Shown: piece after piece, positions 3,287 to 38,340 of the stretch
Layout of the letters: every line of letters begins with the position of its first letter
Numbering within the stretch: the first letter of the stretch is position 1
Source: an uncultured Alphaproteobacteria bacterium
GTDB taxonomy: Bacteria; Pseudomonadota; Alphaproteobacteria; RF32; CAG-239
Length of the DNA stretch: 41,474 nucleotides
NCBI GenBank assembly: GCA_947588655.1
Contig: CANPYS010000015.1
Coordinates: 1-41,474, forward strand
Direction: 5' to 3'
Position numbers and translations under genes: made by a program
The notes under the pieces: generated by a model
The model's database searches: none
The model's input: only the letters and a program-made list of their open reading frames with translations
What the model was told of the DNA's origin: nothing

Positions 3287-3334
3287 CTTTTCTACCTATT
3301 GTTAAAATTAAAGAATATTTTTTGAAAAATTTTG

Positions 3335-3366
3335 AATATAAAAAAACGAACCCCCTTTAGGGGATA
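3335..3366 (-). promoter_or_regulatory. Hairpin plus T-run in the ileS leader
   Basis: Read on the minus strand, CCCC-TAAA-GGGG is followed after a few bases by a seven-T run. It lies between the likely ileS promoter and the start codon, so it could be a weak attenuator. No T-box features are visible. The stem is only four to five base pairs, so the role is uncertain. Confidence 0.3.
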
Positions 3367-3421
3367 ATAATGAAACGGATTATGTTTAAAACTTTAATCA
3401 TATTTCCTCAACTTCTGAGCT

Positions 3422-3450
3422 AAAATAAACCATCTGAAACCGTATGTCAA
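3422..3450 (-). promoter_or_regulatory. Probable ileS promoter
   Basis: On the minus strand TTGACA is followed after exactly 17 bases by TATTTT, a close match to sigma-70 consensus. Transcription would begin near 3415, giving a leader of about 125 nt before ileS. Confidence 0.55.
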
Positions 3451-3451
3451 C

Positions 3452-3485
3452 AAAAAAGAGGGACTTTGGAAACAAGCCCCTCTTG
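3452..3485 (-). terminator. Terminator of the outer-membrane protein gene ending at 3510
   Basis: On the minus strand an AAGAGGGG/CCCTCTT stem with a 13-14 base loop runs into TTTTTT, about 25 bp after the stop codon of the barrel gene. Confidence 0.75.
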
Positions 3486-3509
3486 AAAGAAGTTCTCTAA
3501 CAGAAAATA

Positions 3510-4139
3510 CTAAAACGCATATCTCACGCCAAGATAAAATTCATTAGAGCGAGATCTCCACTTATTCCGTTCTTCTTCATCACGAATCACAAACGAGCCA
3601 TTGTCCACATATCTGTAGCCGAGGTCAACGGAAACATTGTCTGTCGCGGCATAAGAAACGCCAGCGCCTAACTGCCATGCAAATTCATTAGAAGATTTTG
3701 ACCAATTCTCATCGCTATCATCGCCAGTGTGTTTAACTTTTAGGCGAGCCATGCCCAAACCTGCGCCGACATAAGGCGTAAATTTCGTGCCTGTATCAAT
3801 GTCATAATAAGCATTTAACATAACGGAATTGTTTTCTATTTTGATTTTTTCTCCCTCATCTTTTTCCTCTGCATCATCGTGCCAGTTCAGCTCTAATTCA
3901 GTTCTGATCGGACCAGTTTTAACACCATAAGCAAAGCTTGCGCCAAAGACTTCATCATTTAACTTATTTTTGCCGGTAGACTCACCATCCTTTTCGGGAT
4001 TAAAATCCACCCATTTTACTTTGTTAGACATATCATTATATGTGCCTTTAACAGAAACATATTGTTGAAAATCAAGAGCGTTAGCGTTTGCAGCAAATAA
4101 AACTGTTGCAACACCTGCCATTAATAAAATTTTGTTCAT
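3510..4139 (-). CDS. Outer-membrane beta-barrel protein (porin/surface antigen-like)
   Basis: A 209-residue exported protein. Residues 1-21 are a signal peptide (charged start, hydrophobic core, ANA-LD junction). The mature part has alternating beta-strand composition, with acidic loops rich in Glu, Asp and Lys. It ends in LGVRYAF; the terminal Phe and alternating aromatics are the classic C-terminal signal for BAM-dependent insertion. Segments such as YVGAGLGMARLKV and LGAGVSYAATDNVSVDLGYRY match the OMP_b-brl/Surface_Ag_2-like eight-stranded barrel style. Strand count and ligand are not determined. It is transcribed alone, with its own terminator. A second small barrel protein lies upstream at 4784-5347, but the two do not align beyond the common architecture. 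Confidence 0.85.
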   Translation of the reverse strand: MNKILLMAGVATVLFAANANALDFQQYVSVKGTYNDMSNKVKWVDFNPEKDGESTGKNKLNDEVFGASFAYGVKTGPIRTELELNWHDDAEEKDEGEKIKIENNSVMLNAYYDIDTGTKFTPYVGAGLGMARLKVKHTGDDSDENWSKSSNEFAWQLGAGVSYAATDNVSVDLGYRYVDNGSFVIRDEEERNKWRSRSNEFYLGVRYAF

Positions 4140-4169
4140 AGTCGTATCCTTATAAAGTTAGAACATTTA

Positions 4170-4220
4170 GAGCGTTCTTTTTTAAAAAACATTGTCAAAA
4201 AAGGAACGTTAAAAATCAAT
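4170..4220. promoter_or_regulatory. Promoter/operator-like region upstream of the barrel gene
   Basis: On the minus strand TTGACA occurs about 55 bp before the start codon at 4139, preceded by AACGTTCC. On the plus strand the same DNA reads GGAACGTTAAAAA, which resembles the GGTACGTTTAAAT motif found near the cysteine-module genes at 23.5, 24.2, 24.3 and 36.1 kb. The -10 box is poor, so a regulator site or alternative promoter is possible. Confidence 0.35.
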
Positions 4221-4238
4221 GTTTTTAAATAAAGGATA

Positions 4239-4267
4239 TTGACATTTATAGAGCTTTCAGATAGATT
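4239..4267 (+). promoter_or_regulatory. Candidate rightward promoter in a gene-free stretch
   Basis: TTGACA is followed after exactly 17 bases by TAGATT (four of six -10 consensus bases). No coding sequence follows, but a clean terminator hairpin lies about 60 bp downstream. Confidence 0.4.
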
Positions 4268-4273
4268 GATTTC

Positions 4274-4346
4274 AGACGTTCGTTTTTTTTCAATGTTTTT
4301 TAAACCCCGCAAAATCAGTAACCACAAAGCATTTGTGGTTTTTTTA
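4274..4346 (+). ncRNA. Candidate small RNA between promoter and terminator
   Basis: The promoter-like pair at 4239-4267 predicts a start near 4274. The transcript would end at the AACCACAAA/TTTGTGGTT hairpin plus T-run (4320-4346). The roughly 73-nt product carries no plausible ORF. It lies divergently from the barrel gene at 3510-4139. Porin-regulating small RNAs encoded beside porin genes are known in Proteobacteria, but the function here is inference. Confidence 0.35.
4319..4346 (+). terminator. Intrinsic terminator in the intergenic region
   Basis: A nine-base-pair AACCACAAA/TTTGTGGTT stem with a three-base loop is followed by a T-run on the plus strand. No rightward gene precedes it, which is why a small RNA is proposed at 4274-4346. 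Confidence 0.6.
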
Positions 4347-4382
4347 TTTATAAAATTTGCGAAGTGTATAAAAACTTTTTAA

Positions 4383-4616
4383 GGGATATTAGCGCACAAC
4401 GTCATCTTGAAACCCAAAAACGTCATTCTGACGACCACCCTCCACCGTCATTCTGACGACTGGAGGGAGGAAGAATCTAGGTGGAAAAACCATCCGAATC
4501 GTCATGCTGAACTTGTTTCAGCATCTCTTTTATGAGATTCCGAAACAAGTTCGGCATAACTCTTTTATTTAGGTTGATGACGTTTTTGAGAAGTTTCAGA
4601 GTGACGGTGGAGTAAT
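4383..4616. repeat. Cluster of GTCATNCTGA palindromic repeats (P family)
   Basis: Several GTCATTCTGACGA units and one GTCATGCTGAAC...CAGCATCTC...GAGATTCCGAAAC unit occur here. Related clusters lie at 23243-23336, 24317-24424 and 35698-35930. Repeats of this style are widespread in bacterial intergenic DNA. Translation across this copy gives a spurious ORF containing MPNLFRNLIKEMLKQVQHD, a known hallmark of repeat-derived false genes. Together with 4319-4346 and 4633-4681, this accounts for most of the 645-bp gap between the two barrel genes. Confidence 0.75.
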
Positions 4617-4632
4617 GTTCTGGACTTTTCGG

Positions 4633-4681
4633 CTTCTTGCTCATAAGTTTTGCGTTAATCGCAAAACTTACGAGCAAGAAG
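4633..4681. repeat. 49-bp palindrome related to the R1 right end
   Basis: CTTCTTGCTCATAAGTTTTG pairs with its near-perfect inverse ending in CTTACGAGCAAGAAG, giving a stem of about 22 bp with a five-base TTAAT loop and one mismatch. The right half equals the conserved right terminus of R1 at 142-156 and 25961-25975, so this looks like two R1 ends head to head. Confidence 0.7.
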
Positions 4682-4735
4682 GAGGGCTGTCAGAGTTGTT
4701 TTTTAAGAGGTGGTGTTAGAGTGGTAGAAAACCAT

Positions 4736-4766
4736 AAAAAAAACGCTCCTAAATAGGAGCGTTTTC
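4736..4766 (-). terminator. Terminator of the barrel gene ending at 4784
   Basis: AACGCTCCTA/TAGGAGCGTT forms a strong stem followed on the minus strand by eight Ts. The plus-strand side is also T-rich, so it may act in both directions. Confidence 0.8.
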
Positions 4767-4783
4767 TTTGGAAGTTTTACCGA

Positions 4784-5347
4784 TTAAAACGAATATCTTA
4801 AACCGGCGGTCACTTCTTTCAAGTTGTTCAAGCGTGCCATGCCGAGGTAGGTGTAACGGCCCATCACACGGGCAGCAATATGCTCATTAAAGTCATACTG
4901 CATACCGATACCTGCACGGTAGCCGATTCGTTCTTGATGATGTCCCTTGACTTCAGGATATTTGAAACGAACACGATAGTTTGCCATACCCAAAGAGCCA
5001 AGGAAGTTAAAACCACTGCACCAAACCGGCGCATAACCATACAAATCAGCACCATAGGCTAAAAATTCGGTTTTATACTGCTCGCCGTCACGGTTGCTTT
5101 TTCTCTCGCCGGATTGCTGGAAAAACGCTTCCAAGCCGAGGTAATCATACATTCTGATACCAAGGTTGACAGCGCCTGAATTGTAACTATCTTTCATAGC
5201 ACGTGCGGCACCGCCGAACTTGGCATAAGAATAAATATAGTCAGCACCAATATAAGGTTCATATTCTTTCAGTCCGTCAAAATAAGCGGCGTTGGCATTC
5301 ATAGCGATAACGCTGGCAACACTCGCTAACAATAAAGTTTTTTTCAT
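4784..5347 (-). CDS. Outer-membrane beta-barrel protein
   Basis: A 187-residue exported protein with a signal peptide (MKKTLLLASVASVIAMNANA, cleavage after ANA) and a C-terminal EVTAGLRYSF ending in Phe, typical of barrel proteins recognised by BAM. Inner segments such as YEPYIGADYIYSYAKF, NLGIRMYDYLGLEAFF and IGYRAGIGMQYDFNEHIAARVMGRYTYLGM show alternating hydrophobic/polar strands, consistent with an eight-stranded OmpA/OmpW-size barrel. There is a single Cys in the mature part. It has its own terminator and an AGGAG ribosome site. It is divergent from the uracil-DNA glycosylase operon. The exact role (adhesin, porin or structural) is unknown. Confidence 0.82.
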   Translation of the reverse strand: MKKTLLLASVASVIAMNANAAYFDGLKEYEPYIGADYIYSYAKFGGAARAMKDSYNSGAVNLGIRMYDYLGLEAFFQQSGERKSNRDGEQYKTEFLAYGADLYGYAPVWCSGFNFLGSLGMANYRVRFKYPEVKGHHQERIGYRAGIGMQYDFNEHIAARVMGRYTYLGMARLNNLKEVTAGLRYSF

Positions 5348-5510
5348 ATTTAAACTCCTATTTATAAATAGTTTTGTTTCAATCAGTCAACTAAAGCATT
5401 ACAAAACTTTAGCGTAACACTTCGCTTGTGTATATATTCTGTAAAAAAAGGTTTTAAATAGTGCATTTGAAAAAAATTATGTTACGCTTTCAAAAAAATA
5501 TGAGGGAAAG

Positions 5511-6155
5511 ATGTCTTTTTGCGAACCTGATATAAACTGTTGTTTATGCCCGCGCTTGGTTGACTTTAGAAAACAAAACAAAATCAAGTTTCCAAGCTAT
5601 CACAACGCTCCTGTTGAAGCTTTCGGGGATTTAAGCGCTCAAATTTTGGTGGTGGGTTTAGCCCCCGGCTTAAACGGCGCGAACCAAACAAACCGCCCGT
5701 TCACAAACGATTATGCCGGTGATATTTTATATCCGGCGTTAAAAAAATTCGGCTTTGCGACGGGGGATTATCAAAAACGCAAAGATGATGGCTTTATGCT
5801 TAAAAATGTGCGCGTGACAAATGCTGTGCGTTGCGTGCCACCGCAAAATAAAGTCACAGGCGATGAAATTAAAACTTGCGGATGTTTTTTAAAAGCCGAA
5901 ATTGAATCTATGCCGAATCTGCAAATTATTCTTTCCTTAGGGGCGGTGTCGCACAACGCGGTTTTAAAGGCGCTTCATATCAAACAATCCGCCTTTCACT
6001 TTGCGCATGGGGCAAAACATCTGTTACCAAAAGGGCAGATTTTGATTGATTCGTACCACACCTCACGCTACAACATCAACACGGGCGTTTTAACAACAGA
6101 GATGTTTGAACAAATTATCAAAATGGTACAAGGGACTTTAAATGAAAAAAATTAA
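5511..6155 (+). CDS. Uracil-DNA glycosylase, family 5 (UDGb) type
   Basis: A 214-residue base-excision repair enzyme expected to remove uracil, and possibly other deaminated bases, from DNA. Motif A reads GLAPGLNGANQTNRPFTND (49-67), the family-5 form that lacks the polar catalytic Asp/Asn of family 1. Motif B is SYHTSRYNINTG (181-192). Cysteines at 10/11/13, 108 and 123/125 fit the four ligands of the 4Fe-4S cluster found in families 4 and 5. The start follows a GAGGG ribosome site. It is first in a five-gene rightward operon and overlaps the next gene by 14 bp. Its presence in an envelope operon is odd and may only reflect cotranscription. Confidence 0.88.
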   Translation: MSFCEPDINCCLCPRLVDFRKQNKIKFPSYHNAPVEAFGDLSAQILVVGLAPGLNGANQTNRPFTNDYAGDILYPALKKFGFATGDYQKRKDDGFMLKNVRVTNAVRCVPPQNKVTGDEIKTCGCFLKAEIESMPNLQIILSLGAVSHNAVLKALHIKQSAFHFAHGAKHLLPKGQILIDSYHTSRYNINTGVLTTEMFEQIIKMVQGTLNEKN

Positions 6156-7869
6156 AACTTTAAGCTATATTTTATTTGTGTTTGTGGCGTTTGTTTTGTT
6201 TTTTGCCACCTTGACCGCCACGCTGATTTGGGGCCAGTTCAGCTTTGAGCAAGTGCTTATTCACACTAACCCTGCAGGTGTGCCGAAAGCGCTTGTTTAT
6301 AAAATGCTGGCGGGCGCGTTGTTACCAAGCTTGGTTTTGCTTTGCTTCACGTCTTTTTACAAAAAGAGTCGGCGGATAATCTTACTTTTAAGCGTGATAG
6401 GGCTTGTTTGGAGCGCTTATAAAACCTCTGTCTTTCAATACGTTTTAAATATGTTTCAAGAAACTGAAATTTATAAAGACGAATATGTTTATCCTTTAAA
6501 AACAACGTTTCAATTCCCTAAGCAAAAACGGAATTTGATTGTTTTGTATATGGAATCTTTTGAAGAACTGCCTTATTTGAAAGAAATTGAGGCTTTGCCG
6601 GACGGCGTGTCGTTTGACGGCTTTTGGCAACTACCCGATTCGGCATATACAATTTCTGCTATGGTGCAGGGTTTTTGTGCTATCCCCTACATTGTTAAAC
6701 CGGCGCAAAATTTTGAAAGCATGCAAAATTTTCTTTCTAAAGCCGTTTGTTACCCTGAAATTTTAAGAGAAAACGGCTATGAAACAAGCTTTTTGAAAGC
6801 CTTTGATTTAGATTTTACAAGGACGGGAACATTTTTAAAACTTCACGGTTTCAATGAAGCTATCGGCAAAGAAATTCTTGATGAATCTTTTTCAACAATC
6901 ATCCCCAAAGGTCCTTGGGGCTTGGCAGATAGCGATTTATATGAAATTGCAAAAAAGAAACTAACCGCCTTGAGCAAACAAAAAAAGCCTTTCTTATTTG
7001 CGATGCTGACGCTAGACACGCATTTCCCTATGGAATATTTGGATTCAAAATGCACCAATCAATTTCATGACGAAAGAGATGTGAACATTTGCGCCGATCA
7101 AATGGCGGCGGATTTTGTGCGCTGGATACAAGCGCAAGATTTTTATAAAAATACGACAGTTGTTGTTTTGGGCGATCATCCGTCTTATCTTTCAGAAGAT
7201 GAAAATCGGCAAATTTTTAACCGCTTTTTCAACATGGCGCCGAATGATTCTCTCAAGCCACATCAATGGACAACGCTTGACATCGCGCCTACCATTTTAA
7301 ATGCAATCGGCATCAAAATGCCTGAAAATGCTTTTGGCTTGGGGCGTTCTGTTTTAGGCTCAAACCCGACATTGTTGGAAAAATATGGCAAACCTTTCGG
7401 GCGTGAAATCCGAAAATCTTCACCGGAATACGCGCATTTTGAAGAAAAGACAGTTCAAAACAATCCGCTTTATAAGCCTTATCCTGTTTGGGGCGAGAAT
7501 ATTGTTTTGGCTGAAAAACTTTCAAAATATGCGACGTTTTTTAAGGAAGTGATGGGCGGTTTTTATCTGGACACGCTTTCCTTTACTTTGCCCGAGGTTT
7601 CAACAACAGAGCTGATTTTAGATCTTGATTTTCGGATTATGTTTACGGCCAAAGACAATAAAGAAATCAAAATTTTTGCAAACGGAACGGAAGTTGCTTC
7701 AAAGGCGTATTCTGCTTTTGAAAAACAACCTTATCATCTTGAGGTTAAAATTCCAACAAACCTATTAAACGATAAAAAGCTTTTGCTTGAAATTAAAAGC
7801 GATGCCTTAGGCTTTACGCCGGCGGCAAGTGGTGTCGGGTTAGTAAATTTATCAATCCGGCCTGATTGA
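6142..7869 (+). CDS. OpgB/MdoB-like sulfatase-fold phosphoglycerol/phosphoethanolamine transferase
   Basis: A 575-residue membrane-anchored enzyme. Hydrophobic segments near 8-30, 53-72 and 78-95 anchor it, and the sulfatase-fold (alkaline phosphatase superfamily) domain spans about 130-420. Metal and catalytic elements are YMESF (Glu138), LPDSAYTISAMVQGFCAIP with probable nucleophile Thr170, TLDTHFP and VVLGDHPSYL. The segment around Thr170 closely resembles the MdoB/OpgB block that transfers phosphoglycerol from phosphatidylglycerol to periplasmic glucans. Residues 440-575 form a beta-rich extension. The substrate here could be a glucan, lipid A or other surface glycan. It overlaps the upstream gene and precedes a CDP-alcohol phosphatidyltransferase. 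Confidence 0.8.
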   Translation: MKKIKTLSYILFVFVAFVLFFATLTATLIWGQFSFEQVLIHTNPAGVPKALVYKMLAGALLPSLVLLCFTSFYKKSRRIILLLSVIGLVWSAYKTSVFQYVLNMFQETEIYKDEYVYPLKTTFQFPKQKRNLIVLYMESFEELPYLKEIEALPDGVSFDGFWQLPDSAYTISAMVQGFCAIPYIVKPAQNFESMQNFLSKAVCYPEILRENGYETSFLKAFDLDFTRTGTFLKLHGFNEAIGKEILDESFSTIIPKGPWGLADSDLYEIAKKKLTALSKQKKPFLFAMLTLDTHFPMEYLDSKCTNQFHDERDVNICADQMAADFVRWIQAQDFYKNTTVVVLGDHPSYLSEDENRQIFNRFFNMAPNDSLKPHQWTTLDIAPTILNAIGIKMPENAFGLGRSVLGSNPTLLEKYGKPFGREIRKSSPEYAHFEEKTVQNNPLYKPYPVWGENIVLAEKLSKYATFFKEVMGGFYLDTLSFTLPEVSTTELILDLDFRIMFTAKDNKEIKIFANGTEVASKAYSAFEKQPYHLEVKIPTNLLNDKKLLLEIKSDALGFTPAASGVGLVNLSIRPD

Positions 7870-7916
7870 AAAGCGCCTAACTCGGCTTATTTTGAAATAA
7901 ATTTCAGGAGAAAGCC

Positions 7917-8561
7917 ATGCCCTTATTTTCAACATTTTGCAAATATTTCGGCCGATTTTTAAATGCCTTTTATACTTTGATTGAAAGATTTGCGCGCATT
8001 TTGATAAAATTACACATCAGCGCGAATATGCTCACGTTTTTAGGCTTGGGTTTTGCGCTCTTGGGGCTAAATTTTGCAGCGTTGGAAAGTTATTTTTTAA
8101 CTTTTGTATGCTTAATCATCAACCGCTTGTGCGATGTTTTAGACGGCGCGGTCGCAAGGAAAACCGCCGTAAAACCTTTCGGCATCTTTTTAGATATGTT
8201 CGCTGATATAACCGCCGCGGCACTGTTTATATGGGGCTTTATTTTAGGAAACATTTTTGAAAATGCTGCCGCGGGCTCATTTTATCTGGTGGCTTTCATG
8301 ATAGCATCAACCGCACTTTTAAGCTTTTCAATTATTTCCAAGCAAGATTATGCCGCCTTAAATCAGTCGGGGTTAAAAATCTGTTATTTAGGCGCCCTTC
8401 AAAATGCAGATATATTTACCGCCCTGACGCTTATGTGCCTTTTACCGTTTTGGTTTATGCCCATCGCTATATTTTTCGGTTTACTCTTAATTGGAAAGAC
8501 ATTATTAATAATAAGCGGTGCTTACCAGACGTTGGTAATAGCAAGAAGGACGAACGCTTAA
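7917..8561 (+). CDS. CDP-alcohol phosphatidyltransferase family membrane protein
   Basis: A 214-residue integral membrane enzyme of the family that transfers a phosphatidyl or phospho-alcohol group from a CDP-activated donor (PgsA, PssA, choline/ethanolamine phosphotransferases). The family signature is DVLDGAVAR...GIFLDMFAD, with the metal-binding Asp residues at 73, 76, 93 and 97. The Arg-to-Gly spacing is slightly compact. There are about six hydrophobic segments. The acceptor cannot be read from sequence. It sits between the OpgB-like transferase and a DsbD-like gene, ends one base before the latter, and has an AGGAG ribosome site. The LicA-like kinase at the operon end suggests phospho-amino-alcohol metabolism (inference). 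Confidence 0.85.
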   Translation: MPLFSTFCKYFGRFLNAFYTLIERFARILIKLHISANMLTFLGLGFALLGLNFAALESYFLTFVCLIINRLCDVLDGAVARKTAVKPFGIFLDMFADITAAALFIWGFILGNIFENAAAGSFYLVAFMIASTALLSFSIISKQDYAALNQSGLKICYLGALQNADIFTALTLMCLLPFWFMPIAIFFGLLLIGKTLLIISGAYQTLVIARRTNA

Positions 8562-22190: not shown

Positions 22191-23210
22191 CTAAAAATCA
22201 AGCATCACACGTATCGGTTTTTGAGCAGCCATTCCATCATATCCAATATGTCCAAGACCAGAAATATGAAATGCAAAGAAATGATGCGAGGTATCACCTC
22301 TATAAGTAGAGGTCCAATAATAATTACTTGTGACTGAAAGCAATGAAACTTGAACGCCCTTAGTTTTAAGCACTTCTAAGGAGGCGTCAATTTGTTTACG
22401 AATGATAGGATCCGTTTTTGGCATTACACCTGGAATACTCGTGTAAGGTTCGTTTGTGAGCTGACTCGTATCCGGATTCCAAAGCATCAGAAATTCGCCA
22501 ACAGACGGCAAAAACCATTTTCCTCGCCCCGTTATAGGATTTGAAGGATCAACATTTGGTGGATAAAAATCTTGAACCATCAAAGCGGCAGAATATTTCC
22601 ACAAAATTTGCGTGTTTTCTTTGCCGGCATAGGCTGAACGCTCGTTATTTTTTAACGCGGCTATAATCGCTTCATGAGAAGGATAAGGTGTCAAAGGTAA
22701 GTTTACGCTTTGTGATTTAACAGAAACCTGTGTTTTTTCTTGCCCGAAAGGATTTTCGGGGTTAAAGTTAAAATTCTCATCAAAAGTTAAATGATGCAAA
22801 CTGATGACTTTGCCATGACGCCCTTCATCATAGGTGTAAAATACGATGCCGACAGGGGTTTTAGTGTTGTCATAATCTTGGACATAACCGCAAGTGCCGT
22901 CTGCATAATAAACATCACCAATTTCACAAAGTGCTTTGCATGCGGTGTAGGTTTTATCGCTTGGGCAAAAGGCAAGCTTGCCACACCAATCCGATTTATT
23001 GGATTTTGTGTAACCCATTTTTTGACAATCAGGCTGTGCGCATTTTTTATACGAGAAGTCAAATGGGCAAAGAATATAGCCGTCCTCAGCACAATTAGGA
23101 TCATCATCTTTAGAATAATTTAATTCTTCACAAGTCGGTTGCTTTTCACAATTAAGCGCTACCGCCTGATTTGAAAACAAAATTGCTATTAAAAATAAAA
23201 CATACTTCAT
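22191..23210 (-). CDS. Secreted cysteine-module protein with FISUMP/DUF1566-like C-terminal domain
   Basis: A 339-residue protein with a signal peptide at about 1-19 (ending AVA-LN). Two four-cysteine modules follow: Cys27/40/48/57 and Cys62/76/82/91, each near the pattern C-x2-[LM][GN]Y...C...C-P-x-D...Y-x2-C. The C-terminal part contains GKWFLPSVGEFLMLW, SNYYWTSTYRGD and a final KPIRVMLDF, the W-LP / YWTST / R-V signature of Lcl_C/FISUMP (DUF1566) domains, which adopt C-type-lectin-like folds. Extracellular binding is plausible but the target is unknown. The first 60 residues are nearly the same as those of the divergent gene at 24449, and the upstream DNA is duplicated too. Confidence 0.8.
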   Translation of the reverse strand: MKYVLFLIAILFSNQAVALNCEKQPTCEELNYSKDDDPNCAEDGYILCPFDFSYKKCAQPDCQKMGYTKSNKSDWCGKLAFCPSDKTYTACKALCEIGDVYYADGTCGYVQDYDNTKTPVGIVFYTYDEGRHGKVISLHHLTFDENFNFNPENPFGQEKTQVSVKSQSVNLPLTPYPSHEAIIAALKNNERSAYAGKENTQILWKYSAALMVQDFYPPNVDPSNPITGRGKWFLPSVGEFLMLWNPDTSQLTNEPYTSIPGVMPKTDPIIRKQIDASLEVLKTKGVQVSLLSVTSNYYWTSTYRGDTSHHFFAFHISGLGHIGYDGMAAQKPIRVMLDF

Positions 23211-23242: not shown

Positions 23243-23336
23243 CGAATCGTCATCCAGAAACCACCCCAAATGTCATGCTGAACTTGTTTCAGCATCTCTT
23301 TTTATGAGATCCCGAAACGAGTTTGGAAATGACATT
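23243..23336. repeat. P-family palindromic repeat, left of the cassette
   Basis: A CATCCGAATCGTCATCC unit and a GTCATGCTGAAC/CAGCATCTC double hairpin. The same elements, inverted, lie upstream of the divergent gene at 24317-24424, so this copy belongs to the large inverted repeat around 23605-24202. Confidence 0.75.
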
Positions 23337-23369
23337 TTAGAGAGACTTTCCCTCTTTTGTTCTAGCCAA

Positions 23370-23494
23370 AGAAATGTGGAGAGTGGTGCAGATAAAGTCG
23401 TTTCAAAAGCGAGGAAAATTTGAGCGTACATAGAAGTACGTGAATTTTCCGAACTTGAAGAAAGGGCTTTAGATGTGCCGCTATACACATTTCT
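23370..23494. repeat. Variable-stem hairpin element H, copy A
   Basis: A 125-bp element closed by AGAAATGTG/CACATTTCT. Inside, AGTGGTGCA can pair with TGTGCCGCT using G-U wobbles, followed by a central stem GGAAAATT/AATTTTCC and the capping core GTACATAGAAGTAC (23426-23439). Copies at 25657-25815 and 25976-26084 keep the core and flanks but have different central stems. Relative to the matching right arm of the larger inverted repeat, this copy and a few flanking bases are an insertion. Confidence 0.7.
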
Positions 23495-23604
23495 CAAAAA
23501 AAGGTACGTTTAAATGCGCAAATCGTCAAAGAAATTTATATTTGGAAAAACAATGCATTATTTCCTTGACAAATTGCACATTTAAAGGTACGTTTTTTTG
23601 CACA
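23493..23604. repeat. Left arm of a 112-bp inverted repeat
   Basis: The reverse complement matches 24203-24314 at all but four of 112 positions. The arm itself is a bipartite palindrome: AAAGGTACGTTTAAA near its left end and TTTAAAGGTACGTTTTTTT near its right, each beside a TTGAC-type box 17 bases from the TAC core, so it can be read as two divergent promoters with a shared operator. Confidence 0.85.
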
Positions 23605-23647
23605 CGTTTTTAAATTAACCGTTTGTATTTTCAGAACATTTTTATTC

Positions 23648-23676
23648 TTGACAAAGCGCTTTTTTTCATGTATTTT
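23648..23676 (+). promoter_or_regulatory. Probable promoter of the central small gene
   Basis: TTGACA is followed after 17 bases by TATTTT. Transcription would start about 20 bp before the ATG at 23705. It is inside the inverted-repeat-bounded segment but outside the arms. Confidence 0.55.
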
Positions 23677-23704
23677 TGAGCCAAACTCTAATTATTAATA
23701 TATT

Positions 23705-24139
23705 ATGGAAAAGAAGAATCAACTTAAAGTCGGTGTTGACTTTGGCGTTATTTACCGCCGCAAACAAAAAATTGAAATGCACAATTATCTTGATTTTAAA
23801 CATTTGAAAGACATTTGGGGGATTGCCCTTGCCGGCGTAAAAATCAGCCTGAAACAACCTTGCTCGGCGCATTATAAAGCCAAAGCAAAAGCATATCAAA
23901 ATCAAGAAAAACTGCTTTCTTTACAACAATGGCAAACTGTTTACAACAATCTTGAGGCGTTTAATAGCGCTTTAAGGTTTTTGAATCAAAACGGTGTTCT
24001 CGCGCCTATTATTGAAAAGGTTCAGTATTGGTCTGCGGATGAAGATGACGCGCAAACGGCATGGACTTTTCATTTAGAAACGGGGTGTCGCTTTCGCACT
24101 GAAAAAGATTACGCGCGCCTTGTGCGAACAACCCTTTAA
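23705..24139 (+). CDS. Small FISUMP/DUF1566-like protein without signal peptide
   Basis: A 144-residue protein lying between the 112-bp inverted repeats. It has no signal peptide or membrane segment. The second half (about 70-144) has the FISUMP/Lcl_C layout: LSLQQWQTVYNN, an AFNSALRFL helix, YWSADEDDAQTAWTFHLETG and a final ARLVRTTL. It therefore resembles the C-terminal domain of the neighbouring secreted protein while lacking the export signal and cysteine modules. The start has no obvious Shine-Dalgarno sequence; Met25 is an alternative. It has its own promoter and terminator. The function is unknown, and the domain call rests on pattern only. Confidence 0.6.
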   Translation: MEKKNQLKVGVDFGVIYRRKQKIEMHNYLDFKHLKDIWGIALAGVKISLKQPCSAHYKAKAKAYQNQEKLLSLQQWQTVYNNLEAFNSALRFLNQNGVLAPIIEKVQYWSADEDDAQTAWTFHLETGCRFRTEKDYARLVRTTL

Positions 24140-24141
24140 AC

Positions 24142-24171
24142 AAAAGCCCCTGAATATTCAGGGGCTTTTTC
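24142..24171 (+). terminator. Terminator of the central small gene
   Basis: AAAGCCCCTGAA/TTCAGGGGCTTT with a two-base turn is followed by Ts, right after the stop codon. Confidence 0.85.
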
Positions 24172-24202
24172 AATGCAAAATCAACAACTTATCATTAAAA
24201 TA

Positions 24203-24314
24203 TGTGCAAAAAAAGGTACCTTTAAATGTGCAATTTGTCAAGCAAATAATGCATTGTTTTTTCAAATATAAATTTCTTTGACGATTTGCGCATTTAAACG
24301 TACGTTTTTTTGAG
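24203..24314. repeat. Right arm of the 112-bp inverted repeat
   Basis: The inverse of 23493-23604 with four mismatches. It contains AAACGTACGTTT (24295-24306), a perfect 12-bp palindrome that is the most symmetric version of the motif. The 598 bp between the arms hold one gene. Confidence 0.85.
24278..24306 (+). promoter_or_regulatory. Candidate outward promoter for the gene at 24449
   Basis: TTGACG is followed after 17 bases by TACGTT. The mirrored position in the left arm reads TTGACG-N17-TACCTT towards the gene ending at 22191. The putative -10 overlaps the GTAC palindrome, which would suit repression by a dimeric regulator. The -10 match is weak. Confidence 0.4.
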
Positions 24315-24316
24315 AA

Positions 24317-24424
24317 GATTCTCAAAGGTCATCCTGAACTCGTTTCAGGATCTCATAAATAGATGCTGAAACAAGTTCAGCATGACGTTTGGGGTCGTTT
24401 CAGGATGACGATTCGGATGGGAGA
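24317..24424. repeat. P-family palindromic repeat, right of the cassette
   Basis: Contains GTCATCCTGAACTCG...CAGGATCTC and ATGCTGAAACAAG...CAGCATGAC hairpins plus GACGATTCGGATGGGAGAAC. It is the inverted counterpart of 23243-23336 and would form the leader of the downstream transcript. Confidence 0.75.
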
Positions 24425-24448: not shown

Positions 24449-25648
24449 ATGAAGTACATTTTATTTTTGATAGCAATTTTATTTTCAAGTCAGGCGGTGG
24501 CGCTGAATTGTGAAAAGCAACCGACTTGTGCGGAGTTAGGTTATTCCACGCAAGATAATCCGAATTGTTTTTCAGACGGCTATTTAATCTGCCCATTTGA
24601 TTCGCAATATAAAAAATGCGTCAACTTTAATTGCGAGTCGCTTGGGTTTACACAATCAGACAAATCAGATTGGTGCGCGGATATTGCCACCTGTAAAGGC
24701 GATAAAAGCTACACTCTCTGTCAAACACCTTGTATCGCTTGGGATTCTGATACTCTTTCAAGCCTTGCAAGCTCCGGTAAATGTAAAGTCGTGACCATGA
24801 AAAATGACATCAATCTTCCAGAAGATATGACCTTAACGCTTGCCGAAAATACAACAATAGACGGTGGAGGATATGGTTTAACATTTAATATTTCAGGAAC
24901 AAAATCAGGTTTGTTTGCTTTTCAGCTTACAAAAAACAGCGGGCTGGAAAACACCAATGTTCATTATAAGCAAACGGGCAACGCTCATAAATTTGACTTT
25001 GTTCGGGGAAACGGATCTCTTCATCATGTACGCTTTGACGGTGGAGCACCATCTTGGCAGGGCAATCAACACGGCGTCTTATTTTATGACGCTCAAGTAA
25101 CGGTTAGTGGCAGGTTTGAAGTTAATTTTCAAGATCAAGGGCGTTCAAATCGTTTATCTGAAGGCAGCAATATAGATTTCGTCAATGCGCAAGTTACAAT
25201 TAAACAAACCGGTTATAATAAAGATGGCTTTGCAGGAGGAACGATTAAGTTTGAAGATTCAGATGTTACAATAGATAGCGACGAATTTTTGATTGAAACA
25301 ACAAACGCTATTTTTGAAAACACAAAATTTAACTTTAAAGGAAACGGTGATATTGCTTGGTCGGGATCAAGTCATACCTCAAAACTAACTTTAAACCAAA
25401 AAGCCGATGTTTCTTTTACATTGCAAAGACCATCAAATAACCCTGAGCTTGAAATTAACCTTTCAGGGACTTCCGGTGAGCCCGCGCGCTTGGAAATTAA
25501 TGCGACTGAGATGACAAACACAAATATTCGGGCAATGAATGTTTATGACACTTTGGTGTTAAATGGTGTTTCATACCGCCCAAGACAAGTTGGCGAAACG
25601 CCTTTATCGGACATTCAAACTTCGCCTAATTGGGAACGGATAAACTGA
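24449..25648 (+). CDS. Secreted cysteine-module protein with beta-helix-like C-terminal region
   Basis: A 399-residue protein with a signal peptide (1-19) and two four-cysteine modules (Cys27/40/48/57 and Cys62/76/82/91) almost matching the gene ending at 22191. After Cys95 the relationship ends: residues 100-390 are cysteine-poor with short repeating beta-strand turns (for example NTTIDGGGYGLTF, GSLHHVRFDGG, ATIFENTKF-like rungs), the look of a right-handed parallel beta-helix as in pectate-lyase-fold adhesins. It may act as a surface or secreted binding protein. The ribosome site TAAGGAGTAAAAAATG is shared with its mirror gene. It seems to be a module swap onto a common exported head. Confidence 0.75.
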   Translation: MKYILFLIAILFSSQAVALNCEKQPTCAELGYSTQDNPNCFSDGYLICPFDSQYKKCVNFNCESLGFTQSDKSDWCADIATCKGDKSYTLCQTPCIAWDSDTLSSLASSGKCKVVTMKNDINLPEDMTLTLAENTTIDGGGYGLTFNISGTKSGLFAFQLTKNSGLENTNVHYKQTGNAHKFDFVRGNGSLHHVRFDGGAPSWQGNQHGVLFYDAQVTVSGRFEVNFQDQGRSNRLSEGSNIDFVNAQVTIKQTGYNKDGFAGGTIKFEDSDVTIDSDEFLIETTNAIFENTKFNFKGNGDIAWSGSSHTSKLTLNQKADVSFTLQRPSNNPELEINLSGTSGEPARLEINATEMTNTNIRAMNVYDTLVLNGVSYRPRQVGETPLSDIQTSPNWERIN

Positions 25649-25656
25649 TTCCTTAT

Positions 25657-25815
25657 TTTCACATCCAAGCTGCGGAAAGCCAGATAATGAGGCGAATAGA
25701 AGTTTAAAAATAGGTTTGGGAATTTTAGCGTACATAGAAGTACGTGAATTTCCAAACCTATTTTTAAACGATTAGGCGCCCATTAGGTGCCTTTGCATCC
25801 AAACCGCGGAAATGT
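25657..25815. repeat. Variable-stem hairpin element H, copy C
   Basis: The central stem GTTTAAAAATAGGTTTGG / CCAAACCTATTTTTAAAC surrounds the conserved core GTACATAGAAGTAC (25730-25743). Flanks retain AGATAATGAG and CATTAGGTGCC, counterparts of the conserved flanks of copies A and B. The element is bordered by near-identical direct repeats, CATCCAAGCTGCGGAAA and CATCCAAACCGCGGAAA, the second of which leads into copy B. Confidence 0.7.
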
Positions 25816-25819
25816 GGTG

Positions 25820-25975
25820 GAGCCATAAAAAACAACAAAAGTAATTGTTGTTTTTTAGGCGACATCACGCGATTGTTAGCTTGTGAGGCGCTGATAAGCG
25901 CCGATGCAAGCGTTACAGAGCGGTGACCGAAGCGAGTTAGCGACTGCTCAAAGAGCAGAGCTTACGAGCAAGAAG
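25820..25975. repeat. Dispersed structured repeat R1, copy 2
   Basis: Matches 2-156. Differences fall in stems and are compensated or wobble-compatible: GGCGCT/AGCGCC here against GGTGCT/AGTGCC there, and terminal hairpin CTGCTC/GAGCAG here against GTTTTGCG/CGCAAAAC there. It ends in the conserved CTTACGAGCAAGAAG. It sits between GAAATGTGGTGGA and GTGGTGCAGATA, which are nearly adjacent in H copy A, so it appears inserted in H copy B. The 25649-26087 gap holds only H and R1 elements. Confidence 0.75.
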
Positions 25976-26084
25976 TGGTGCAGATAGAGTGATTTCAAGC
26001 CCGAAAGTACCGCAGTGTACATAGAAGTACATGAGGAAACTTTCGGGCTTGAAATTGCTCTAAATGCCAGCTAGACACATTTCC
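25976..26084. repeat. Variable-stem hairpin element H, copy B
   Basis: A perfect 16-bp stem ATTTCAAGCCCGAAAG / CTTTCGGGCTTGAAAT surrounds the core GTACATAGAAGTAC (26017-26030). The flanks GTGGTGCAGATAGAG and CTCTAAATGCC...GACACATTTCC match copy A in position. The 5' closing arm GGAAATGTG appears to lie at 25808-25816, split off by R1. Confidence 0.7.
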
Positions 26085-36035: not shown

Positions 36036-36151
36036 TAAAAAAACGTACCTTTAAATTAGAAAATTGTCAAGCTTTTTTTTCAAAAAAAATCAAGCACTTA
36101 ATTTTTTAAAAATGCCCCAAAAAAATGCACAAAAAAAGGTACGTTTAAATG
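36036..36151. promoter_or_regulatory. Paired GGTACGTTTAAAT operator-like motifs
   Basis: AAAAAACGTACCTTTAAATT at 36037-36056 and AAAAAAAGGTACGTTTAAAT at 36131-36150 face each other, as in both 112-bp arms of the 23-24 kb locus. TTGACA lies on the minus strand exactly 17 bases from the first TAC core. No other stretch noticed in the window carries this pairing, which ties all four cysteine-module genes to one regulatory signature. Confidence 0.55.
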
Positions 36152-36176
36152 AGATGTTTTTATATGGAGAAAAGGC

Positions 36177-36713
36177 ATGCCTATCATTATTTTTATACTT
36201 TTGATGTTGTTTAGTCCATTAACTTACGCTGAAACATGCGTCAACGATTATGGTGGAAACAATAGTTGCGTTGAAGGGCGCACATATGGAGAAACGGCGG
36301 GCGATTGCACTAAACTTGGCTATACTGCCACAAGTTGCAACGGCAAAGCATTCTTAAAATGCCCGTTTGATAAAACAAAGCTCCGTTGTATTGAAAAAAA
36401 TCAGATTATTGAAAAAATAAATTGTGAGGAGCTAGGCTATTTAGCAACACAACCTTCATGTGATGAAAATGGTTTTATAATGACCTGCACTGAGGATGAA
36501 AAGACATTTTATAAATGCATAAACGCTATCTCTTACAACTGCCAAGAATATTTTTCGGCAAGCATGGTTACAATGAACAACAATTGGTGTAAAACAGCCG
36601 TTTCTTGCGATGAAAATAGTCGTAAACTTTGTGCAGAAATCAATACAACAACAACCGATACTTATAATAACCTTCAAGAAGATTTAAAAAATCTTCCACC
36701 GAATAAATTTTGA
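36177..36713 (+). CDS. Secreted three-module cysteine-rich protein
   Basis: A 178-residue exported protein with a signal peptide (1-18, cleaved after TYA) followed almost entirely by four-cysteine modules: Cys44/54/62/71, Cys83/95/104/114 and Cys122/138/144/152. The first two open with C-x2-LGY, and the first contains CPFD as in the 22-25 kb proteins. No further domain is present, so this is the minimal family form. A GGAG ribosome site precedes the start, and the next gene begins 16 bp downstream, so the pair is an operon. Disulfide-stabilised extracellular modules are likely; the function is unknown. Confidence 0.78.
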   Translation: MPIIIFILLMLFSPLTYAETCVNDYGGNNSCVEGRTYGETAGDCTKLGYTATSCNGKAFLKCPFDKTKLRCIEKNQIIEKINCEELGYLATQPSCDENGFIMTCTEDEKTFYKCINAISYNCQEYFSASMVTMNNNWCKTAVSCDENSRKLCAEINTTTTDTYNNLQEDLKNLPPNKF

Positions 36714-36729: not shown

Positions 36730-38340
36730 ATGAAAAAGTTTTTTTTCTTATTTTTGCTGTTAGCCGCCATGCCTGCAATGGCAGATTTAACGTGTAAAAC
36801 AACTGAAGGGTGCACCTCTTCCAACCCCGCTAAAGATTGCGAGGCTTTAGGCTATGATGCCAAAACAAGCCTTGATAAAGACTGCGAACACTCCTTGCAA
36901 TGCCCTTTTAGTAAAGATTATGCTAAATGCGTGAAGTGGAAGGATCAAAAAATTGATTATGCTGAGGCATGTAAAGCTTTGGGGTTTGAAAATCAGCCTA
37001 GTTGTCCAGCTGCGTTATGGGAAAGATGTCCTTTTGAAGGGTATGGATATTATGCAAAATGTAAAAATCAAACATCTAGCTGTCAAGCCTTAGGCTTTGT
37101 AGAACAAGAAAGTTATATTGACATGGAGGATCACCTTACAAAATATTATCTTCCTTATTGCTGGGATCAGGTAAATTGCACTGACGACACCGGCATCCAA
37201 CATTATGCCCTTTGTGTCAAAGGGGAATATATGCCCTTATGTTCATATTGGGAAGGAAAGGGAGGAAATTTATGTCCAGATGATGATAGCGAATCTGATT
37301 TTAATACTCGTGTTGTTAAGGTTAAAGGAGCGTGGAAACATAATGCATTTACAACTGCATTTATAACACCTCTTTTAAAAGGTGGAGTAAAATGCATCAA
37401 ATGTGGTAGATGTTTGGATGATCTCTATTTTGTTGGCTACAATGATAAAGATAATATTTCTAAAGGTAACTTACTTGCCTTAAAAGAAGGTTTAGAAACT
37501 GATCGCTATACTATTGGTGATCATATAATAACTTATTGCTCTCAGTGCGGGGATACCAAAACCACTTCATTTAACATCACAGAGCAAGATAATGACGATA
37601 AACTTGATCTTGACTCTGTTTGCCGTACCCCCGATAATCCTGATCCTGTTGGTCCTGGTGGTGGCTCAGGTGGCGATTCGGGTGGTAGTGAAGGATCATA
37701 CAGCTTGTGTAATTGTGATGTTAATGACTATGTTGATAAAAATGGTCATTGCCAAAAAAGTAGTAATGGTGCCATTGCACAAGTTTATTTCGTAACAACA
37801 GAGTTGAACCTTGTAGAATATGGTGGCAATAGTAGTTGTTCCATAGGTGAAGAAAATTGTTATGTAAAAGCTGCGGCATTAAGCACCACGACCGGAAACT
37901 ATACGATAGATAATAGTCAATGTGTGGATGCTACAACAAAAACAGCCTTCTCAACTATTGAAGAGGTATATAGATCTTGGAGAAATAGTAGAGATGAGGA
38001 TGAATTATATAATATGTTCTATACTACCAATAGTAAAGCCGGTCAGCTTAAGGGTAGCCTTTGGTACGGTGGTGGAAGACAGGTAAGCAGTTTTTCTGTA
38101 GAAAATGATCTTTCTGACTGGCATTGGTACATACCAACAATTTTGGAAATCTGGCTTTCAGGTAAAACTTCTCACCTTTCAGATACACCGGCAAAATCAA
38201 GTAATAGTTCTGGTTCTTGCGGGGTTTGGGCATCTGATGGCTTAGAAGGCTCAAATAACAAAGTATCAGGCCAATTTTATCCGCATGTGTTACTGTATCA
38301 AGGGTGCACTCCTAAGAACGGTACGCATATTAAGCCATAG
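36730..38340 (+). CDS. Large secreted cysteine-module protein
   Basis: A 536-residue exported protein. The signal peptide (1-18) ends AMA-DL. Three four-cysteine modules follow: Cys37/52/58/67, Cys81/92/100/111 and Cys118/144/150/162, opening C-x2-LG[YF] and usually with CPF at the third Cys. Next come CxxC pairs (CIKCGRC and CSQCG), a flexible Gly/Ser linker (VGPGGGSGGDSGGSEGS) and a short CNC...C knot. The C-terminal domain (about 350-536) has WHWYIPTILEIWLSG and CGVWASDGLEGS, reminiscent of FISUMP/DUF1566 but more diverged than the gene ending at 22191. Its AAGGAG ribosome site resembles that of the 24449 gene. Confidence 0.78.
   Translation: MKKFFFLFLLLAAMPAMADLTCKTTEGCTSSNPAKDCEALGYDAKTSLDKDCEHSLQCPFSKDYAKCVKWKDQKIDYAEACKALGFENQPSCPAALWERCPFEGYGYYAKCKNQTSSCQALGFVEQESYIDMEDHLTKYYLPYCWDQVNCTDDTGIQHYALCVKGEYMPLCSYWEGKGGNLCPDDDSESDFNTRVVKVKGAWKHNAFTTAFITPLLKGGVKCIKCGRCLDDLYFVGYNDKDNISKGNLLALKEGLETDRYTIGDHIITYCSQCGDTKTTSFNITEQDNDDKLDLDSVCRTPDNPDPVGPGGGSGGDSGGSEGSYSLCNCDVNDYVDKNGHCQKSSNGAIAQVYFVTTELNLVEYGGNSSCSIGEENCYVKAAALSTTTGNYTIDNSQCVDATTKTAFSTIEEVYRSWRNSRDEDELYNMFYTTNSKAGQLKGSLWYGGGRQVSSFSVENDLSDWHWYIPTILEIWLSGKTSHLSDTPAKSSNSSGSCGVWASDGLEGSNNKVSGQFYPHVLLYQGCTPKNGTHIKP

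Follow-up and report, generated by a model that had tools for sequence, protein, structure and literature searches.

Two divergent genes for secreted proteins face away from each other at 22-26 kb of a 41,474-nt stretch (hereafter the window) of the 1.55-Mb genome of an uncultured gut alphaproteobacterium (G000), and between them lies a pair of inverted repeats enclosing a small gene. An initial annotation read this arrangement as an 822-bp gene cassette with the central gene as part of the unit, which raises the question of what the repeats actually delimit. The analysis reported here found that each arm is a single copy of a dispersed element of about 50 copies. These elements are best explained, with a probability of roughly 0.84, as minimal invertible promoters, i.e. 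phase-variation switches, most of which serve one family of adhesin-like genes.

A dispersed element upstream of a gene family

The arms are located at 23493-23600 (+) and 24207-24314 (-) and are 96% identical over 108 bp, the match growing to 143 nt at 88% in the repeat search. The inverted mirror of the initial annotation is confirmed, as is its continuation through repeats into the first codons of the divergent genes, in the form of two pairs lying outward of the arms, one of 92 nt (88%) and one of 193 nt (82%), the latter reaching those codons. Each arm is an imperfect palindrome, matching its own reverse complement and carrying an outward-facing TTGA-type box at both ends, which accounts for the promoter-like TTGAC-type boxes correctly reported in both orientations within each arm. 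The large mirror arises because two modules, each composed of an element and a gene, are arranged divergently on either side of a small gene; the supposed cassette is the juxtaposition of two members of a dispersed family.

When compared with its own genome, the mirrored region gave 133 matching stretches at about 45 to 50 places. Element counts refer to the stretches fetched around such matches in G000 and in a congeneric genome, G001, whose mraZ-rsmH contig corresponds to the rabbit-gut metagenome-assembled genome CANRJO01 (uncultured Alphaproteobacteria). The G000 regions contain 51 paired-site elements, one of which belongs to a second class, and those of G001 contain 14 strict ones, the sites being of the AAAAAAAGGTACSTTTAAA class. 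Among 21 genomes searched, only these two matched the paired-site pattern, with 0 control matches, and an exact search for the core pattern in viral contigs gave no match. With few exceptions, the G000 copies each precede a single gene by about 100 to 550 bp, and the product of that gene belongs to a family with the start MKYVLFLIAILFS.QAVALNCEKQPTCEELNYS. An element is present at most 650 bp upstream in 40 of the 49 distinct family genes; four of the remaining nine are too close to a contig end, and one of the other five has a more divergent copy. Some switches precede genes outside the family, e.g. a family 8 glycosyltransferase.

The number of family genes in G001 is about equal to that in G000, and the related elements measure 91 or 102 bp and have the ends AAAAAAGGTACCTT and AAGGTACCTTTTTT. 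The mraZ-side locus carries no family gene in G001. A second family of long surface proteins (MRKFIAVIFLGLVAGAYSVQAACF) occurs there in several near-identical copies (L242-L244 and L247) with the same switch, always in the off-type orientation defined below.

Core orientation and promoter-like boxes

The inner 73-84 bp of the elements occur in both orientations between paralogous loci with matching outer flanks, in G000 as well as in G001. Read towards its gene, the usual G001 copy runs from distal GGTACCTTAAAAAA..TTGTCAAG to proximal GTTGCATTTAAAGGTACC, with TTGACAA directed away from the gene. At three G001 loci (L186, L189 and L196) the core is reverse-complemented between outer flanks of the usual type. 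L186 is identical to L243 at 92 of 93 positions after inversion and at 63 of 99 in direct alignment; for L189 and L180, whose flanks are near-identical (..TTAACTATAGC and TTGATGCGATTCGA), the corresponding values are 92/106 and 66/113. In G000, copy L020:7711 combines distal (AAAATCAATAACTTATT..GTGTGC) and proximal (GAGAGAG) flanks of the usual kind with an inverted core, which matches that of L010:6099 at 97 of 104 positions inverted and 82 of 106 direct, while the flanks of the two agree at 23 of 30 (distal) and 12 of 12 positions (proximal). A reversed core with unreversed flanks is present at four loci in two species, each time with the breakpoint within the 10-bp AAGGTACCTT. To judge from the sequences, this arrangement is the trace of site-specific inversion, not of duplication or insertion of whole elements, and it lends support, at paralogous loci, to the inversion mechanism that the initial annotation had considered. 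Two further copies, L020:217 and L027:379, were rejected as ON copies, since their flanks are inverted too and the whole modules face minus-strand genes.

The outer arms of G001 elements are of two kinds, AAAAAA or CAATTTAA, which in some elements occur together, and AAGGTACCTT is constant at both ends. Because the outer arms differ between copies while AAGGTACCTT stays constant, the crossover is placed in AAGGTACCTT. The distance between the two centres (between GT and AC of GTAC) is 73-74, 82-85 or 95 bp, which corresponds to approximately 7, 8 and 9 helical turns at 10.5 bp per turn; given the few independent spacing classes, the argument from helical phase is only suggestive.

At one end of the core, TTGACA stands exactly 17 bp before TAC[CG]TT in 49 of the 51 G000 elements and in 13 of the 14 strict ones of G001, and TAC[CG]TT itself lies within the recombination site. 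In the usual orientation the gene-facing end carries TTGATG, TTGATA, TAGATA, GCAAAA or, in the window, TTGACG. Among family genes, TTGACA is directed away from the gene (off-type) in about 40 of 41 for G000 and, counting clear cases, in 45 of 48 for G001; the rare orientation towards the gene was found in one of about 41 and in three clear cases of 48, respectively. For this count, a weak 24-bit match (L171) was discarded, and L190:1809, which lies between two genes, was kept as ambiguous.

In the window, the proposed invertible promoter element of the left gene (23493..23600, minus strand) has its centres at 23505/23506 and 23589/23590, 84 bp apart. Its TTGACA-17-TACGTT is directed away from the left gene and towards the central gene, and TTGACG-17-TACCTT towards the left gene. 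The element of the right gene (24207..24314, plus strand), with centres likewise 84 bp apart, has TTGACA directed away from the right gene and TTGACG towards it. Both genes are in the off-type orientation, possibly with some leakage.

In 36 of 42 G000 elements the gene-distal flank, beyond the invertible part, contains a sequence which fits the consensus of integration host factor (IHF) and begins 39 or 40 bp ahead of the distal centre, against a background of about 0.004 per such stretch. The right window element has this putative IHF site, AATCAACAACTTA, at 24179..24191 (plus strand; consensus WATCARNNNNTTR), and the left one lacks it. Common descent may explain the constant position, and IHF might bind there. 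In several G001 elements, e.g. at L180 and L197, a terminator-like GC-rich stem followed by a T-run ends just before the distal arm; such sequences would shield the switch from read-through.

Candidate invertase and competing explanations

The initial annotation, seeing no recombinase at the locus, had looked to host recombination or a distant enzyme, and intact serine invertases were indeed located elsewhere in G000. The genome encodes two intact small serine recombinases (C16 and C13) and a broken third (C18), in addition to two large serine recombinases, two of Xer type and one prophage integrase. The C16 protein contains a Resolvase domain (PF00239, E 5.8e-32) with the YxRVS motif (MIYGYVRVSS), and its nearest solved relatives are DNA-invertases. 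A search for a C-terminal helix-turn-helix (HTH) gave no Pfam HTH match for C16 and a weak HTH_23 match for its paralogue C13. C16 is 84% identical to a G001 protein encoded beside the same pfk gene, no other relative exceeding 66%. The invertase C13 is encoded beside a switch of another kind, which has GGAACG sites and neighbours a gene for an outer-membrane protein. As the C16 orthologue is conserved together with the GGTACC sites and C13 adjoins a GGAACG switch, C16 is, by conservation and exclusion, the best candidate for the enzyme acting on the GGTACC sites.

A switch of this second class occurs in the window as well, at 4193-4291, where the GGAACG-centred sites have a spacing of 74 bp and precede an outer-membrane beta-barrel gene (3510-4139, minus strand). 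A near-identical copy (L235:3694-3785) has a serine invertase on one side and a further gene for an outer-membrane protein on the other, and the two copies share the same orientation, with the internal TTGACA away from the gene. The C18 gene (L236, about 3310-3890) contains at least one stop codon and lies near a GGTACC element (2542-2641). In G001, degenerate resolvase-like paralogues without the catalytic serine of YxRVS follow directly behind intact invertases (L237:2708-3286 and L239:2670-3257) and are possibly regulators.

In the mechanism proposed here, two inverted sites centred on AAGGTACCTT (AAAAAAAGGTACSTTTAAA in the window) lie about 84 bp, or eight helical turns, apart, and a Hin-type serine invertase, C16 encoded beside pfk, would exchange strands in the GTAC centres and flip the core. 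One end of the core has TTGACA at a suitable spacing from the TAC[CG]TT supplied by the site: directed towards the gene it would turn transcription on, and directed away it would leave the gene off or weakly on. Some 50 switches would each serve one dispersed gene, mostly of the adhesin-like family, with about one member on in the assembly. The number and location of the copies, the two core orientations between matching flanks, the conserved box with its spacing and the orthologous invertase are observed; reversibility at one locus and the identity of the enzyme are what we infer from these patterns.

Several observations weigh against invertible promoters. The comparison of orientations is between paralogous loci of assembled genomes, and no single locus was seen in both; G000 has only one clear ON copy; and the enzyme was assigned through conservation, not proximity. 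The -10 box TAC[CG]TT is far from TATAAT and was not reported by a simple generic promoter scan, for which reason the promoter activity of TTGACA-17-TAC[CG]TT is put forward on the strength of its conservation. The gene-facing TTGACG of the window is one base off TTGACA, so the OFF state may be leaky. Finally, at 73-95 bp the segments fall short of the switches that PMC5903667 lists, which measure at least 154 bp (154 to 314 bp for known switches quoted there, and 966 bp for the Salmonella flagellar switch).

These points leave some room for fixed bidirectional promoters, or sites of a regulator, copied along with the genes, in which case the reversed copies would be old rearrangements and no inversion would take place at present. 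One orientation does account for about 98% of the G000 and 94% of the G001 copies, TTGA-type boxes stand at both ends in G000, and no locus was seen in both orientations. This explanation is nevertheless improbable in the face of the four loci in two species where the core is reversed, the flanks are not and the breakpoint falls inside the same 10 bp, and of an invertase orthologue conserved along with the elements. The shortness of the elements, their terminal inverted repeats, high copy number and outward TTGACA boxes would also suit a family of miniature inverted-repeat transposable elements (MITEs), non-autonomous transposons with outward promoters inserted as 108-bp palindromes upstream of many genes. 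We consider this very unlikely: the copies are not scattered but concentrated before family genes (40 of 49, with few elsewhere), the flanks are conserved past the palindrome on both sides, and it is the outer arms that vary and the centre that is constant.

The model implied by the initial annotation, in which recombination from arm to arm would invert the 598 bp that hold the central gene or make the outer genes change places, draws on the 96% identity of the inverted arms, between which homologous recombination or the invertase could act. Most of the roughly 50 elements are single, however, without such a partner, and relatives of the central gene elsewhere are not bounded by such arms, which makes this model equally hard to credit. 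No sign of flipping was seen for the central gene, and the observations favour an inversion within each single arm, over the approximately 84 bp between the GTAC centres. Invertible promoters thus remain the preferred explanation. A more elaborate proposal, which we hold to be somewhat short of an even chance, is that one serine invertase serves about 50 dispersed switches, each for one gene and 73-95 bp long, which may be shorter than any natural invertible promoter yet reported, with whole-turn spacing and a -10 box supplied by the site, and that together with the shuffling of heads and tails described below this would amount to a system resembling antigenic variation in gut Alphaproteobacteria, with about one adhesin on at a time.

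The protein family and related switch systems

Family proteins begin with a signal-peptide-like sequence, continue with a shared Cys-rich head and end in a tail of one of two classes. The left window gene (22191..23210, minus strand) encodes a secreted protein of 339 aa with the shared head and a class A (Lcl_C-like) tail, and the right one (24449..25648, plus strand) a secreted protein of 399 aa with the same kind of head and a class B beta-helix tail. Class A tails match Lcl_C in nine of 18 members (best E 5.3e-8); the structural model of the window protein resembles a fimbrial protein of Bacteroides (4eps, E 7e-6) and, less closely, the C-terminal domain of Legionella Lcl (8q4e, E 0.04, probability 0.99). 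For class B tails a beta-helix is predicted, the nearest structures being SRRP adhesins of Lactobacillus reuteri (5nxk, 5ny0), and four of 15 such tails match the adhesive domain Pectate_lyase_5. The two folded members are thus predicted to resemble adhesins, from which an adhesin role of the family is inferred, and the signal-peptide-like starts together with the adhesin-like folds suggest that its products would be exposed on the surface.

Over the first 165 nt, mean identity is 0.785 between genes of the same tail class and 0.784 between genes of different class, and one pair combines heads 97.6% identical with unrelated tail classes. Heads and tails have been freely recombined. The exchange of C-terminal parts through shared heads, as considered in the initial annotation, therefore stands as history, i.e. 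as past mosaicism, and not as a switch. A diversity-generating retroelement, prompted by the Lcl_C-like tails, was considered and rejected, the sole reverse transcriptase of the genome being located in a prophage beside a tail-like protein. That prophage (L058, G000 C3:50000-62000; 4167-8392) has a likely diversity-generating retroelement of its own, with the reverse transcriptase at 7241-8392 and the tail-like protein, which has a C-type-lectin-looking end, at 4167-6860.

The left element's outward box lies upstream of the small central gene (23705..24139, plus strand; 144 aa, no function assigned), which in addition has a separate TTGACA-17-TATTTT at 23648-23676. The interval from the left element to the start of the left gene contains a dispersed repeat, GTCATGCTGAAC... 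(23258..23341, minus strand), whose right-side counterpart is GTCATCCTGAAC... (24330..24420, plus strand). The same interval holds a hairpin repeat with the conserved core AGCGTACATAGAAGTACGTGA (23370..23494, no strand assigned), which is common to many family modules; hairpins with this constant core and variable pairing stems also occur at 25691-25790 and 25974-26070, and many family genes are preceded likewise. Weak element matches at 36036-36159 lie upstream of more Cys-rich secreted genes (36177-36713 and 36730-38340).

If the switches flip, this gut alphaproteobacterium would have about fifty loci for independently switchable adhesin-like proteins, phase variation on a scale comparable to that of mpl, discussed below, within the Alphaproteobacteria, a class represented by only four samples in an earlier survey of sequencing reads, which registered 0 inversions in them (PMC5903667). 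Short segments near whole-turn spacing would moreover be a useful test case for the action of serine invertases on DNA below the persistence length. Read at a single locus, such switches are easily mistaken for cassette ends or mobile elements.

Invertible promoters are a known kind of switch, and a literature search of open-licence papers found no description of this repeat or this gene family. Like the invertons catalogued in gut bacteria by the PhaseFinder work, in which inverted repeats of 10-40 nt surround flipping DNA near cell-surface genes (PMC11892184), the present elements have short inverted repeats flanking a segment near such genes. C16 is similar to the DNA-invertases of Hin/Gin type in its length of about 200 aa, its Resolvase domain and its nearest solved relatives; unlike them, the one enzyme would serve about 50 sites, and an IHF-like site lies beside the switch. 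A single distant serine recombinase is at work in the Mpi system of Bacteroides fragilis, where it inverts 13 promoter regions of surface products (PMC4747536, PMC5903667). Those regions are largely polysaccharide operons, whereas most of the roughly 50 sites found here serve genes of a single protein family; the present segments are also far shorter, and their repeat is centred on GGTACC. By description, the other near parallel beside Mpi is the mpl (P35) lipoprotein family of Mycoplasma penetrans, which has 38 paralogues, most of which carry an invertible promoter each and switch independently of one another (PMC2268961, PMC10502178): both are large paralogous families, of surface proteins there and of putative ones here, in which most genes have a switch to themselves, as is the case for 40 of the 49 genes here. 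The two differ in phylum, in arrangement, the mpl genes being clustered and the present ones dispersed and mostly single, and in the candidate enzyme, which is here a serine recombinase.
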